NCBI GenBank assembly: GCA_934394665.1
Contig: CAKRRS010000034.1
Location: 1-26,821 of the forward strand
Origin: an uncultured Acetatifactor sp.
GTDB lineage: Bacteria > Bacillota > Clostridia > Lachnospirales > Lachnospiraceae
Length of the DNA stretch: 26,821 bases
Direction of reading: 5' to 3'
In this document: in pieces, positions 2,653 to 23,475 of the stretch
How positions within the stretch are numbered: the first letter of the stretch is position 1
Layout of the letters: each line of letters opens with the position of its first letter
Notes under the pieces: generated by a model
The model's input: only the letters and a program-made list of their open reading frames with translations
The model's database searches: none
Told to the model about the DNA's origin: nothing
Position numbers and translations under genes: made by a program

Positions 2653-3567
2653 CTACTTATCCTGTTTGCCGTTCGAGAACTTAAATACGATCAAGCTCAG
2701 GATACCTGTGATAATGAACAACATTACAGACAGCGCACCACTCATTCCGTAGTTCTTACTGTACAAATGGTTGTTCAGGTACATGATCAGGGTCATACTG
2801 GATCTCATAGGATCGCCCTTACCGTTAGTCAGGATCTGAGGTACATCGAACATCTGCAGACCACCGATCAGGGATGTGATCATTACATAAATCAGAATCG
2901 GCTTCAACAAAGGTAATGTAATCTTGAAGAATACCTGGGTAGAGGTTGCTCCGTCTACTTCCGCTGCCTCAAAAAGGGAAGTATCAATACCCATCATACC
3001 TGCCATCAGGAGGATCGTTGTGTTACCAAACCACATCAGGAAGTTCATCAGTGCTACCAGGCCTCTGGTACTCCATACGTTTGTAAGGAACTGATACGGC
3101 TCTTTAAAGATTCCGATCTGCATCAGCATTTCATTGATAGGACCACCATCCGAGAACAGCGTGAAGAACAACATTGCAAATGCGGAAGCCATGATCAGGT
3201 TCGGCAGATAGATAACTGTCTTGAAGAATCTCTGTCCTTTTAATCTAAGACTGGGATCCGAGAACCATGCACCCAGAAGCAGAGATATGATGATCTGCGG
3301 TACAAATCCCAGTACCCACATGATCAATGTATTCTTGGTGTACATCCACAGATCCGGATTGGATAACAGCTTTGCATAGTTACCAAATCCGATGAAATTC
3401 GGTCCGATCTGTGTCAGTCCGGAACGGTAATTTTCAAAAAAGCTGTAATAAAATGTCCGGAACAACGGGATCAACTGGAATAATACATACACTACTATAA
3501 AGGGGATCAGGAAAATATAACCCCACTTATTATAGCGTACCACCTTTCCGCGTTTTACCTTTGCCAT
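2653..3567 (-). CDS. Sugar ABC transporter permease, MalF type (cellobiose locus, 304 aa)
   Basis: This is the first inner-membrane subunit of the same CUT1 importer. A basic N-terminus (MAKVKRGKVVRYNKW) precedes helix one at about residues 15-38. The EAA loop reads EAAEVDG at 200-206 and is followed by FFKITLPLLKP. The length is normal for short MalF-type permeases of Firmicutes, which lack the large periplasmic loop of the enteric protein. The ATG at 3567 is preceded by GGGAGGA at a 6-7 base distance. The gene follows the binding protein gene after a hairpin at 3723-3756 that probably reduces permease expression relative to the binding protein. Confidence 0.9.
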   Translation of the reverse strand: MAKVKRGKVVRYNKWGYIFLIPFIVVYVLFQLIPLFRTFYYSFFENYRSGLTQIGPNFIGFGNYAKLLSNPDLWMYTKNTLIMWVLGFVPQIIISLLLGAWFSDPSLRLKGQRFFKTVIYLPNLIMASAFAMLFFTLFSDGGPINEMLMQIGIFKEPYQFLTNVWSTRGLVALMNFLMWFGNTTILLMAGMMGIDTSLFEAAEVDGATSTQVFFKITLPLLKPILIYVMITSLIGGLQMFDVPQILTNGKGDPMRSSMTLIMYLNNHLYSKNYGMSGALSVMLFIITGILSLIVFKFSNGKQDK

Positions 3568-19922: not shown

Positions 19923-21332
19923 TTAGTTAGCTGCAGTAGCTGCTTTTTCAGCTGCCCATCTGTCAACTACGGTTGTCTTTACAGTATCCCAGTCGATGGA
20001 ACCGGAAGCATACTCCAGAAGAGCTGCGCCGAAGTCATCCTTGAACTGCTGGCTGGGGAAGGAAGTGAAGTTCCATGCTACAGATGTCTTGGAGCTATCT
20101 GCCATGTAACGAAGAACTTCCTGTGCCAGAGGATCGGTGGGCTTTTCGTCATCGCTAAAGGTATCGAAAGGAGCGATGAATCCAAGGTCGTTGGTTACTG
20201 CTGCCTTACCGGTCTCAGAAGAGAACAGCCATTCAACGAATGCGATAGATGCTGCCTGATCCTCAGCAGAAGCTTCCTTGTTGATGCAGAAGAAGTTCTC
20301 AGTACCGGTGCACAGTCCCTGGTTCTCTTCACCTTCAACTCCTGTATAGATAGGAAGGAACTTAACATCCTCAGCTTTAACAGTGTTACCGTCTACGCCA
20401 TTGATCTGGCTCCAACCCCAGTTACCGTTCTGTACCATTGCTGCCTGACCCAGAGCGAACTCAGCCATGGAGTCGTCTACAGACTTGCTTCCCAGCAGGC
20501 CGGGCGCTGTGCAGGAGTTGTTGATGTACAGATCGAAAATATTCTTGAAGTTATCGGAGTAAGTGAACTCCAAAGTGTCGGTATCAGTGATACCCTTATC
20601 CTTGAACTCGTAGTATACAGGGATGTTAGCCAGATGAGTCTGCCATCTCCAGTCTTCACCGGGAGTCAGGGATGTGGAAGCGAATACGCCTTCGATACCC
20701 AGATCATCTTTCTTAGCCTGCATATCTTCTACAACCTCTTTTAACTTAGCGAAGTTGTTGATCTCATCCATGCTTGCTGCCTTAGCACCATCCAGTGCGA
20801 AGTACTTCTGCATGATAGCGTCGTTGTAAATGATACCGTAACCCTCTACTACGTAAGGGATTCCGTATACACCACCGTCTTCGCCGGTGATTGCCAGGCT
20901 CTTATCCATTAACCAGCTGTACAGGTCTGTATCCTTTAAGTCTGCGCAGTAGTCTTTCCAGTTCTGATAACCGATAGGTCCATTGATCTGGAACAGGGTA
21001 GGTGCTTCCTTGTTAGCGATCTCAGACATCAGGGTCTGCTCATAGGTACCGCTTGCTGCGGTAACAACCTTTACAGGAACACCGGTCTCCTCGGTATATT
21101 CCTTAGCCAGCTTCTGCCATACTTCATCAACTTCTGGTTTGAAGTTCAGATAGTATACAGAGCCTGCTGCCTCTGCGGTCTTCTCTGCTGCCTCGGTGGT
21201 GGTTGCTGCTGCTGCATCCGTCTTAGCGTCTGTTGCAGGTGTGGTAGCTGCGTTGTCGGAACTGCCACAGCCGGTCAGCATGGAAGCTGCCATTACTGCA
21301 CAAAGTAATACACTTGCCAGTTTCTTCTTCAT
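19923..21332 (-). CDS. Extracellular sugar-binding lipoprotein of the alpha-glucan ABC importer (469 aa)
   Basis: The signal MKKKLASVLLCAVMAASMLTGC has its lipobox cysteine at 22. An Ala/Thr/Asp-rich linker follows to about residue 58. The mature carbohydrate family 1 fold begins SVYYLNFKPEVDEVWQKLAKEY and contains PTLFQINGPIGYQNW, GIPYVVEGYGIIYND and AMVQNGNWGWSQIN, motifs typical of maltose- and alpha-glucoside-binding proteins. The ATG at 21332 has GGAGAGG seven bases upstream; the 14 codons open before it are leader. It is first of the operon with permeases, malQ and lacI. The promoter at 21463-21491 with a LacI-type operator directly downstream indicates induction by its sugar. Malto-oligosaccharides are the best guess from malQ; other alpha-glucosides are possible given the GH4 enzyme upstream. 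Confidence 0.9.
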   Translation of the reverse strand: MKKKLASVLLCAVMAASMLTGCGSSDNAATTPATDAKTDAAAATTTEAAEKTAEAAGSVYYLNFKPEVDEVWQKLAKEYTEETGVPVKVVTAASGTYEQTLMSEIANKEAPTLFQINGPIGYQNWKDYCADLKDTDLYSWLMDKSLAITGEDGGVYGIPYVVEGYGIIYNDAIMQKYFALDGAKAASMDEINNFAKLKEVVEDMQAKKDDLGIEGVFASTSLTPGEDWRWQTHLANIPVYYEFKDKGITDTDTLEFTYSDNFKNIFDLYINNSCTAPGLLGSKSVDDSMAEFALGQAAMVQNGNWGWSQINGVDGNTVKAEDVKFLPIYTGVEGEENQGLCTGTENFFCINKEASAEDQAASIAFVEWLFSSETGKAAVTNDLGFIAPFDTFSDDEKPTDPLAQEVLRYMADSSKTSVAWNFTSFPSQQFKDDFGAALLEYASGSIDWDTVKTTVVDRWAAEKAATAAN

Positions 21333-21411
21333 AATCTTACCTCTCCTTTTGGGTTGAAACGGGATACTTTTCATGATTTTTGCATTGTATGCATTGCTCC
21401 CGTCTGGTTGT

Positions 21412-21567: not shown

Positions 21568-21601
21568 AAAAAGCAGGAAATCTTTCGATCTTCTGCTTTT
21601 T
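21568..21601. terminator. Bidirectional-looking terminator downstream of the GH4 unit
   Basis: AAAAAGCAG (21568-21576) pairs with CTGCTTTTT (21593-21601), with an inner partial stem, and gives a T run on both strands. On the minus strand it would end transcripts coming from GH4 through the box array, shielding the SBP promoter. Confidence 0.75.
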
Positions 21602-21631: not shown

Positions 21632-21890
21632 TACCGCTTACCGATTACTTTTTCTTAGCCGGGCGGTAATAGATCCATGTATTTCCTAAACATCGGATCT
21701 CATTTACCGCTTATATCCTGACTACAAACAGTAGCAGGCGGTATTTTTCGTATGATTCTACCCATTTGCGTTCCTTTTTTACCGCCTGATCACTGTTAAT
21801 AGCATCTAAAAGCGGTAAATGTTACGATATAATGGCTTTTTTATATGAATAATTACCGCTTAGGTTTTGAAATGTGTCAGTCAGGCGGTA
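21632..21890. repeat. Phased array of eight alternating TACCGC/GCGGTA boxes
   Basis: TACCGC occurs at 21632, 21705, 21780 and 21854, and its reverse complement GCGGTA at 21663, 21738, 21812 and 21885. Start distances are 31, 42, 33, 42, 32, 42 and 31 bp, so the unit is 73-75 bp. Most boxes extend to TTTACCGCYT or ARGCGGTAA. The sequence between boxes is not conserved. Each 42-bp step can fold as a hairpin: 21663-21710 has inner AGATCC/GGATCT, and 21812-21859 has inner ATATAA/TTATAT. The array fills the 300 bases between the GH4 stop and its terminator and holds no gene. Its role is unknown. Confidence 0.8.
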
Positions 21891-21902: not shown

Positions 21903-23315
21903 CTATAAATATTTCTTCCAGCCCTCCGGCAGGTATTTGCTCGTGCCACGGAGCATATCTGACACCAGTTCTTCTACCTGTGCACGGGTAGTTCTTCCTT
22001 TCACCTGAGGATCATTCAGGAAAGCTTCCACTACCAGGTCGAAGTCACACAGAATCGCCGCCTTCAGAATGCGCTCGTGGTTCTCCACATGGGGCTCTAC
22101 CAGCTCCTTGATTTGGGCAGGAAGTTCTCCGGCATACAACGGACGGATGGCATCTCTCTCGAATACCGCATTGGTCTCTACCACGGCACTTTCCGGCAGG
22201 TTTGCGATCTGATGACCTGTATTGGGAATGTTGACATTGCTGATCTTACGGGTCAGTCCGCAAAGTGCTTTGATCAGCTGGATGCCTTCCTCTCCGGTGG
22301 GTTTCAGTTCGATTTCTTCTTCCCCTGCTGCCAGTCTCGCGCTCTTTTCCAGGCGCTTCTGCAAATCCTGTTTTCTCCAGTCCACGGTGGTCAGACCGAA
22401 TTTCCATCTTTTTACAGTTTCCGGATCCTTCAGGTAACTGTCTCCGACACCCGGCATGAATTCTACCAGATGTCTGTCTCCGGCTGCCGCGATCAGACCG
22501 TACTTGCGGAACAGGTCAAATTTTACAATGTGTGCACAGTCAAAAGTGGAATTCATCCAGTTTTTATCTACTTCCTTAAAGCCGTCCTCCTTATGCTCCT
22601 CGGTATATTTCCGATACATGGGGAACAGGTCGATTCCCTTATAGGAGGCATAGTCAAACCAGGTGAAATGATTGATACCCAGTACATTGACCTGAATGTC
22701 CTCTCGCTTCACGTCGGTAAGTCCGGTGGTCTCCTCCAGGATTCCCTTTAATACTTTCTGTGTGCCGAATACTTCATGACAGCATCCGAAGGCTTTGATC
22801 TCCGGGAATACATAGTATAACGTCTTCACGCACAGTGACATTGGATTTGTGTAGTTGATGACCCATGCCTTAGGTGCATAGGCTTTGATCGCCTGCGCGA
22901 TCTCCACATACATCGGGATCGTGCGCAGTGCTCTCATGGCGCCACCGGGACCCGCCGTGTCTCCTACGGACTGGTAGATGCCCAGTCGTTCCGGCATATG
23001 CACGTCCACTGCCATCTCGTCAAAGGTACCCGGCAGGATCGATATGACGATAAAATCAGCTCCGGTCAACGCCGTCTTCAGGCTGTCGGAAACGGTGTAA
23101 TTCCATTTTCCCACGACATCTTCTCTGGCTGACAGTCTGTTACCGATGATCTCATTGTGTCTTGCCGCCTCTGCATCAATATCATACAGGCGGATGGTGC
23201 CGGACAGTTCCTCGTCCATAGCCAGATCTGTCATAAAGGTCCACGCCCATCCTCTGGAACCTCCGCCGATATAGGCGATCTGTAAGTCTTTTACTTTTCC
23301 GTTTGCATACTCCAT
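21903..23315 (-). CDS. GH4 family glycosidase, probable alpha-glucosidase (470 aa)
   Basis: GH4 enzymes cleave glycosides by NAD-dependent oxidation and elimination and need Mn2+ in reduced conditions. The NAD-binding start reads IAYIGGGSRGWAWTF (13-27). NYTNP is at 154-158, the metal site motif CHEV at 179-182 (Cys179, His180) and a second conserved histidine lies in GINHFTWF (His216). Within GH4 the CHEV-type motif marks alpha-glucosidases acting on free sugars, whereas CHSV marks alpha-galactosidases and CDMP or CNVP the phospho-sugar enzymes. This fits ABC import, which delivers unphosphorylated sugar. The ATG at 23315 has a perfect AAGGAGG; the frame open to 23399 covers a duplicated leader. 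It is a separate unit upstream of the alpha-glucan operon and divergent from an AraC regulator. No signal peptide, so cytoplasmic. Alpha-galactosidase activity is a less likely alternative. Confidence 0.9.
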   Translation of the reverse strand: MEYANGKVKDLQIAYIGGGSRGWAWTFMTDLAMDEELSGTIRLYDIDAEAARHNEIIGNRLSAREDVVGKWNYTVSDSLKTALTGADFIVISILPGTFDEMAVDVHMPERLGIYQSVGDTAGPGGAMRALRTIPMYVEIAQAIKAYAPKAWVINYTNPMSLCVKTLYYVFPEIKAFGCCHEVFGTQKVLKGILEETTGLTDVKREDIQVNVLGINHFTWFDYASYKGIDLFPMYRKYTEEHKEDGFKEVDKNWMNSTFDCAHIVKFDLFRKYGLIAAAGDRHLVEFMPGVGDSYLKDPETVKRWKFGLTTVDWRKQDLQKRLEKSARLAAGEEEIELKPTGEEGIQLIKALCGLTRKISNVNIPNTGHQIANLPESAVVETNAVFERDAIRPLYAGELPAQIKELVEPHVENHERILKAAILCDFDLVVEAFLNDPQVKGRTTRAQVEELVSDMLRGTSKYLPEGWKKYL

Positions 23316-23322
23316 TTGTAAT

Positions 23323-23398
23323 CCTCCTTGTTTTTGCGAAGCAAAAATCCGAACCCCTTGGTGAGGAGAGGATTTAGCCTCCTTGTTTTTGCGAAGCA
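23323..23398 (-). repeat. Duplicated 21-bp ribosome-site unit in the GH4 leader
   Basis: An exact 21-bp direct repeat occurs at 23323-23343 and 23378-23398, starting 55 bp apart. Each copy includes AAGGAGG on the minus strand. The copy next to the gene is the real ribosome site. TTTTTGC and GCAAAAA around GAA (23331-23347) form a 7-bp hairpin just before it, and AAATCC/GGATTT in the spacer form another. Confidence 0.8.
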
Positions 23399-23475
23399 CA
23401 TCTAATTCTCTTGTGTTTTTAGCGTTGGCATTTCTGTTCTGTTTTATCTCTATACACTTTATCTTTATATTGCAT

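Follow-up and report, generated by a model that had tools for sequence, protein, structure and literature searches.

ERIC and Correia elements are bacterial MITEs or small mobile repeats. NrdR boxes occur in pairs about three helical turns apart, forming paired operators set by helical phase. RU repeats have also been described as bacterial small mobile repeats (PMC2759123). BIMEs, or bacterial interspersed mosaic elements, are built from REP palindromes and come with RAYT transposases; as presented in PMC2817692, they are multicopy intergenic elements of alternating orientation and regular spacing that bind gyrase, IHF, or Pol I.

The element described here, an array of short alternating boxes, resembles the BIMEs of that source in being multicopy, intergenic, alternating, and regularly spaced and in occurring as arrays of several units as well as single units. 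It differs in that the conserved part is a box of 6 to 9 bp rather than the longer hairpin with a GTAG head presented there, in that the letters of the spacers drift while their lengths are held, in that the periods come in five whole-turn classes, in that four dyads (eight boxes) are the commonest layout among arrays with diverged spacers, and in the absence of a detectable Y1 transposase from the richest genome, G142. Like MITEs and small mobile repeats, it occurs as short copies scattered through the genome, with homology that frequently stops at an inverted motif (among the matches listed); unlike them, it has internal boxes that are intact in diverged copies, and no target duplication was seen in the flanks of 11 copies. 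With NrdR box pairs it shares two binding boxes about three turns apart, here putatively read by an oligomer, but the letters are different, the sites are many and intergenic, with unrelated neighbors, and a single array can hold as many as eleven exact boxes. The initial annotation of this DNA knew of no named family with this geometry, and nothing like the phased box array was found in our searches of the open-licence literature of PubMed Central.

The window, meaning the whole 26,821-nucleotide stretch that was analyzed, contains eight exact TACCGC/GCGGTA boxes in strictly alternating orientation at positions 21632 to 21890 (Table 1). A direct box map gave start-to-start distances of 31, 42, 33, 42, 32, 42, and 31 bp, exactly as first claimed. 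It is flanked on one side by the stop codon of a GH4 gene and on the other by the 5' side of the gene for a solute-binding protein.

Table 1. Features of the window array, its neighboring genes, and the geometry of related arrays
Feature	Positions or genome	Strand or boxes	Detail
ABC transporter solute-binding protein gene	19923..21374	-	258 bp from first box; context
Dyad 1	21632..21668	TACCGC 21632-21637 (+), GCGGTA 21663-21668 (-)	31 bp start to start
Linker 1	21669..21704		36 bp; box-to-box 42 bp = 4 turns; holds imperfect inverted repeat AGATCC...GGATCT (by eye)
Dyad 2	21705..21743	TACCGC 21705-21710 (+), GCGGTA 21738-21743 (-)	33 bp
Linker 2	21744..21779		36 bp; box-to-box 42 bp
Dyad 3	21780..21817	TACCGC 21780-21785 (+), GCGGTA 21812-21817 (-)	32 bp
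Linker 3	21818..21853		36 bp; box-to-box 42 bp
Dyad 4	21854..21890	TACCGC 21854-21859 (+), GCGGTA 21885-21890 (-)	31 bp
Glycoside hydrolase family 4 (GH4) gene	21903..23399	-	stop codon 13 bp from last box; context, outside array
Geometry in turns	Window		3-4-3-4-3-4-3
Geometry in turns	G142		3-4-3-5-3-4-3
Geometry in turns	G289, three arrays		3-6-3-4-3-6-3
Geometry in turns	G413		3-2-3-2-3-2-3
Geometry in turns	One G011 array; G089 counting two one-mismatch boxes		3-4-3-4-3-3-3

The box itself is not rare in the window. There are 30 TACCGC/GCGGTA 6-mers, of which 22 lie elsewhere than in the array, whereas shuffles average 6.9, and the 7-mer TTACCGC occurs 11 times against 1.76 expected, which might suggest that the array is an accident of composition. 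The exceptional thing is the clustering: in 500 dinucleotide shuffles of the whole window, the maximum number of boxes per 260 bp was at most 1 in 320, 2 in 177, and 3 in 3, and it never exceeded 3, compared with 8 in the real window. This clustering and the recurrence of whole-turn spacing in ten genomes, the window counted, refute an accident, to which we assign practically no probability. Elsewhere in the window, at 638-758, two lone TTACCGC boxes stand 87 bp apart, a distance that is not a whole number of turns, and the second is followed by GCAGTA; these may be remnants.

A pattern search of related genomes, as initially suggested, returned arrays of the same make in nine other Lachnospiraceae genomes: GAM79 (= G001), G011, G018, G089, G142, G289, G336, G413, and G492. 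The window array is one member of a dispersed intergenic element class, and the class is wider than is visible from the window alone. The nearest named relative, Lachnospiraceae bacterium GAM79, has a GH4 that is 94% identical; alignment of the orthologous gap between the GH4 and solute-binding protein genes, a check proposed in the initial annotation, gave no conservation at the site, as the GAM79 gap has no array and differs throughout, and a similar array is found at another locus (G001:C1:626965 on).

A first survey with a three-box pattern matched 4 of 101 genomes (GAM79, G011, G089, and G033, the last set aside as chance). Among 397 family genomes 13 matched, compared with 10 for the reversed control; G001, G142, G289, G413, and G492 were counted as real bearers, and the eight genomes with a single hit were treated as chance. 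The matches in G413 were first read as coding repeats, a reading that was dropped after its C15 array was read. With shorter linkers, 9 of the same 397 genomes matched and 8 matched the control; G114, G353, and G360 were set aside. Because the 101- and 397-genome surveys required linkers of at least 38 and at least 30 bp, respectively, and missed the 53-bp class, the prevalence is a lower bound; G018 and G336, with the shorter period, were detected later, and G018 had first been chosen as a negative comparison. A single-dyad pattern matched 21 of 391 genomes of the taxonomic class against 20 for the reversed control, which is background except for GAM79 (5 matches); G564 and G601 had two matches each. 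Near-identical 40-bp inverted repeats of the form TACCGCC...GGCGGTA in the Clostridia genome G650 (six copies, e.g., C1:133831-133870), and also in G533 and G858, appear to be a different repeat.

G142 was the richest bearer, with 95 three-box matches (reversed control, 0) in about 31 separate arrays by hand count. Exact dyads, part of which were inspected individually, numbered 97 in G142 (control, 0), 27 in G289, 19 in G011, 14 in G018, 11 in G492, 8 in G001, and 4 in G089 (controls, 0 to 2), and the comparison genomes G019, G020, G063, G041, and G457 had 2, 1, 1, 0, and 0 (controls, 0 to 3). G457, one other genome of the genus of G142, had no arrays, and among 50 named relatives from a GH4 search there was one match, judged to be chance, with a pattern blind to the 53-bp period. 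Since it is absent from the GAM79 locus, from 49 of the 50 named relatives as far as that pattern reaches, and from G457, the element is dispensable. A viral, phage, or plasmid origin was considered and rejected: 84 viral stretches had a three-box match, several had at least eight boxes, and many of the stretches shared one recurring pattern of different make, but none of their box maps had the window geometry, and neither the window array against plasmids nor a G142 array against phages gave a match. One viral contig (L155:385-583, IMGVR_UViG_3300010392_003162) carries ten TACCGC/GCGGTA boxes spaced mostly 11 to 12 and 30 to 31 bp apart (about one and three turns); these may form a tandem repeat of 42 bp, possibly another phased array.

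The helical phasing proposed for the window was borne out beyond it, with several whole-turn geometries in other genomes (Table 1). The unit is a dyad, TACCGC followed mostly 29 to 33 bp later by GCGGTA (31 bp in 88 of 94 G142 cases), although odd dyads also occur: G142 has some of 35 and 44 bp, G011 some of 14 and 20 bp, and GAM79 some of 20 bp. Arrays of two, three, five, or more dyads also occur, as do single dyads in GAM79. Same-strand box spacings of at least 40 bp fell into five classes, 52 to 54 bp (47 cases), 61 to 63 bp (26), 72 to 75 bp (121), 82 to 84 bp (36), and 94 bp (12), which correspond to 5, 6, 7, 8, and 9 turns of 10.5 bp and take in 242 of 254 spacings, the remaining twelve being scattered from 44 to 96 bp. 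The 254 spacings are not independent, as there are near-identical repeats in G018, G336, G492, and part of G011 and G413, and the G142 copies share descent. As many spacings are copies by descent, the distinct pairs of genome and value provide a sharper test; for these (n = 43), R was 0.585 at 10.5 bp, and none of 20,000 random draws was as high. The same was true of 21 hand-compiled linker classes (R of 0.89; 0 of 20,000 draws as high), a list which predates the reading of G018, G336, and the G413 array. The spacing count leaves aside L325, L326, L099, L100, and L280, and both it and the context counts given below leave aside runs in L257 before 2000, L189 beyond 7000, and the window before 20000.

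The near-fixed module is the plus-to-minus dyad, and whole turns are kept best by the dyad-to-dyad period. The linker offsets the length of the dyad, with 30 + 23 bp in G018, 29 + 23 in G336, and 32 + 20 in G413 (period of 52 to 53 bp) and 31 + 42 in G142 and the window; the 23-bp linkers are about 2 bp off two turns, so that only the period is in register. A 52-bp tandem repeat of 4.8 copies at L187:3625-3875, also with a period of five helical turns, contains no box and reaches to within about 90 bp of the G089 array.

The G142 copies allowed constraint to be examined in diverged sequence. Seventeen of the approximately 31 arrays were aligned, picked for full length, and the nine that lie outside the young subfamily were used for divergence; these nine were chosen as complete, a choice that favors intact boxes and lengths. 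In pairwise comparison, spacers mismatched at 3,269 of 7,733 positions (42%) and boxes at 8 of 1,728 (0.5%). After three boxes per copy were discounted as the search seed, 44 of 45 boxes were exact, compared with 211 of 1,557 spacer 6-mers equal to the consensus. Spacer lengths were 25/36/25/46/25/36/25, being one base off in 4 of 63 cells and ten bases (one turn) off in one. The statement that the DNA between the boxes is not conserved therefore holds for its letters, 42% of which differ, but not for its lengths, which are conserved in G142, the one genome where this could be tested. The suggestion that the spacing itself is under selection gains support both from these diverged copies and from the several geometries in other genomes. 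We read the contrast between boxes and spacers as a sign that each copy, or each lineage, is under functional constraint. The alternative, a single master under constraint from which neutral copies were seeded, would require recent copies, a requirement at odds with their divergence unless there were many masters.

The arrays might alternatively be insertions of a miniature nonautonomous transposable element, the boxes being terminal and internal sites of a transposase acting in trans. The G142 copies are homologous along 267 to 272 bp, and in many older pairs among the matches listed the likeness breaks off only a few bases outside the first and last boxes. The discrete ends with terminal inverted repeats and the multiple copies characteristic of MITEs were thus found in many older G142 pairs among those matches, with exceptions such as L249/L259, where the likeness goes on some 53 bp further. 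In eleven younger copies, longer stretches of flank are shared, with likeness up to about 520 bp (again among the matches listed), the distribution among genomes is patchy, and the G142 contigs C206, C217, and C231 break near arrays. However, a dead insertion would lose its boxes as fast as its spacers, contrary to the 44 of 45 unseeded boxes kept in diverged copies; the flank alignment of the 11 copies revealed no shared target duplication; and the whole-turn linkers are left unexplained. We consider this reading unlikely. A search for an empty site in G457 with a 6.5-kb G142 query gave no DNA match at all and was uninformative. A profile of the G142 element matched the GAM79 array with an E value of 2e-19; its match to the window array, with an E value of 7e-13, was full length. 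On these profile matches, common descent of the G142 and GAM79 arrays is likely and that of the G142 and window arrays is only suggested, both graded cautiously because the boxes supply much of the scores.

The organization shared with BIMEs raised the related possibility that the arrays are REP/BIME elements spread by a RAYT tyrosine transposase. "Many per genome" holds for the 97 dyads of G142; the other bearers have 4 to 27. The arrays have no GTAG-type head or conserved REP palindrome, their conserved unit being the 6- to 9-bp box; the palindrome is limited to the boxes in most G142 dyads and is longer in some G289 and GAM79 dyads. A search of the draft genomes for one transposase family, by the Y1_Tnp domain (PF01797), which lumps RAYT and IS200 types, gave no match in G142, G089, or G018 and one each in G001, G011, G289, and G492, and the result for G142, the genome with 97 dyads, argues against both transposition readings. 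The element behaves like an interspersed array of the BIME kind, yet two of the features that define REPs are missing from it, and a RAYT-spread REP is very improbable.

The initial annotation had also raised a string of RNA hairpins, here taken as hairpins transcribed from intergenic regions or as one long hairpin. This was addressed with cmscan, RNAalifold, counts of pairs for local and nested stems, and folding with the boxes fixed and the spacers shuffled. The window folded better than its spacer-shuffled versions on both strands (z of -4.3 and -3.4), as did three G289 arrays (z of -2.0 to -6.4) and G089 (z of -3.4 to -3.5), and a single GAM79 dyad (L280:4084-4122) is a perfect 12-bp inverted repeat. 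In the 17 aligned G142 copies, the sole family large enough for the test, there was no covariation: paired cells amounted to 83.2% compared with 83.4% after shuffling for local stems and 85.5% compared with 85.7% for nested stems, and none of 11 changed boxes was compensated in either partner, eight of the 11 representing one inherited change. Excess folding on both strands was found in 5 of 17 arrays, the window included, and was lacking in the other 12, except on one strand of L271 (-2.4). Furthermore, neighboring genes may have either orientation with respect to an array, an RNA gives no reason to expect whole-turn spacing, and cmscan at the gathering threshold gave no Rfam match on the arrays scanned, which did not include the G018, G336, and G413 loci. 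The RNA reading was therefore rejected as a general explanation, and we regard it as improbable overall, although for the window array itself it may still apply: the covariation it predicts fails in G142, and the better-than-shuffled folding of the window, G289, and G089 spacers speaks for it. Since the excess appears on both strands, it reflects inverted repeats in the spacers, which may correspond to dyad symmetry of a bound complex or to an RNA role in some lineages.

Reading frames around the arrays were called by a simple rule. Among 43 arrays, 28 lie between tandem genes, 7 between divergent genes, and 3 between convergent genes, with 5 undetermined; a further 16 comprise 7 tandem, 2 divergent, 4 convergent, and 3 undetermined. 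The arrays are placed in gaps between main reading frames; a few overlap the end of a longer frame by 24 to 70 bp (L247, L251, L265, and L268), and several run into small frames of doubtful status. Where the genes are in tandem, 6 arrays had the same orientation as the genes and 12 the opposite (P = 0.24; hand count leaving out the extended arrays L246 and L250), a lean that may still reflect a strand effect. The array end is 13 to 53 bp from a stop codon in the window, L186, L187, and L189 and 172 bp away in L185; a 3' untranslated region role was considered and dropped, as a number of G142 arrays are instead close to a gene start (L256, 25 bp; L264, 30 bp; L245, 60 bp). A scan for terminators beyond the window array found none; by eye, there is a possible terminator with a long loop at about 21570-21600. 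The window also contains a Clostridiales-1 RNA at 96-230 (RF01699, 108 bits) and a tRNA at 844-930. Of 20 neighbor genes scanned, 13 had a Pfam match and 7 did not, the matches including ribosomal protein L7/L12, a serpin, a polysaccharide deacetylase, NlpC/P60, LytTR, an ECF-type sigma factor, and transporters. These 20 neighbors are unrelated, so that no regulon is apparent, and a regulon operator was rejected as an explanation.

The explanation that we favor, and hold to be somewhat more probable than all others together, is that the array is a dispersed DNA element serving as the scaffold for a candidate multimeric DNA-binding protein, with the boxes on one face of the helix. Each dyad consists of two boxes of 6 to 9 bp, TACCGC and its inverse, about three turns apart, and dyads, typically four, are set a whole number of turns (5 to 9) from one another, so that the boxes face one side. 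A sequence-specific multimeric protein may bind each dyad as a dimer or, within a tetramer, bridge it. Neighboring dimers may then interlock by contacts that are possible only on a shared face of the helix, and the defined complex so formed would cover about 190 to 300 bp of DNA. Cooperative binding of a multimeric protein, the first of the alternatives initially listed, is thus the best fit, supported by the phasing and the constraint, with the protein itself only a candidate; the folding excess of the window, G289, and G089 spacers is not predicted by a plain double-stranded DNA site. The chromosomal genes on either side of the copies are unrelated, and for this reason an architectural role in the DNA (as a bend, bridge, insulator, or anchor for a topoisomerase, by analogy with proposals made for BIMEs) is more likely for the complex than that of an operator for a single regulon.

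More tentatively, and with confidence short of even, we propose an undescribed nucleoprotein scaffold of fixed size in which four dimers would occupy four dyads on one face; a few Lachnospiraceae would have up to dozens of such sites between their genes. Selection would keep the letters of the boxes and their register and would tolerate whole-turn insertions and deletions in an element that would also spread. Five whole-turn period classes around a near-fixed dyad amount to an unusually clean natural experiment in helical phasing, in which evolution has gained and lost turns of the helix as wholes and hardly ever as halves. The arrays predict a sequence-specific, face-dependent DNA-binding complex in common gut bacteria; if this is true, the Lachnospiraceae would gain a BIME-like chromosome element not found in our searches of the open-licence PubMed Central literature.

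G142 and GAM79 also carry TwoAYGGAY RNA (RF01731), a second dispersed repeat about as long as the box arrays but, in contrast to them, a structured RNA with an Rfam model. In G142 it was found at L263:471-635, L263:2814-2979, L254:4014-4177, L243:5419-5585, L244:3011-3175, L247:1992-2155, L258:1344-1507, and L267:1805-1968, and in GAM79 at L189:4179-4341. By eye, the G142 copies have inverted repeats, TGTATAAC...GTTATACA, outside the RNA model, giving them the look of a mobile element. One copy, that at L263:2814-2979, has a box array 50 bp away. A DDE transposase gene (DUF772, DDE_Tnp_1_6) at L263:3417-5006 starts 122 bp from a G142 array and was possibly inserted in the flank of the array.
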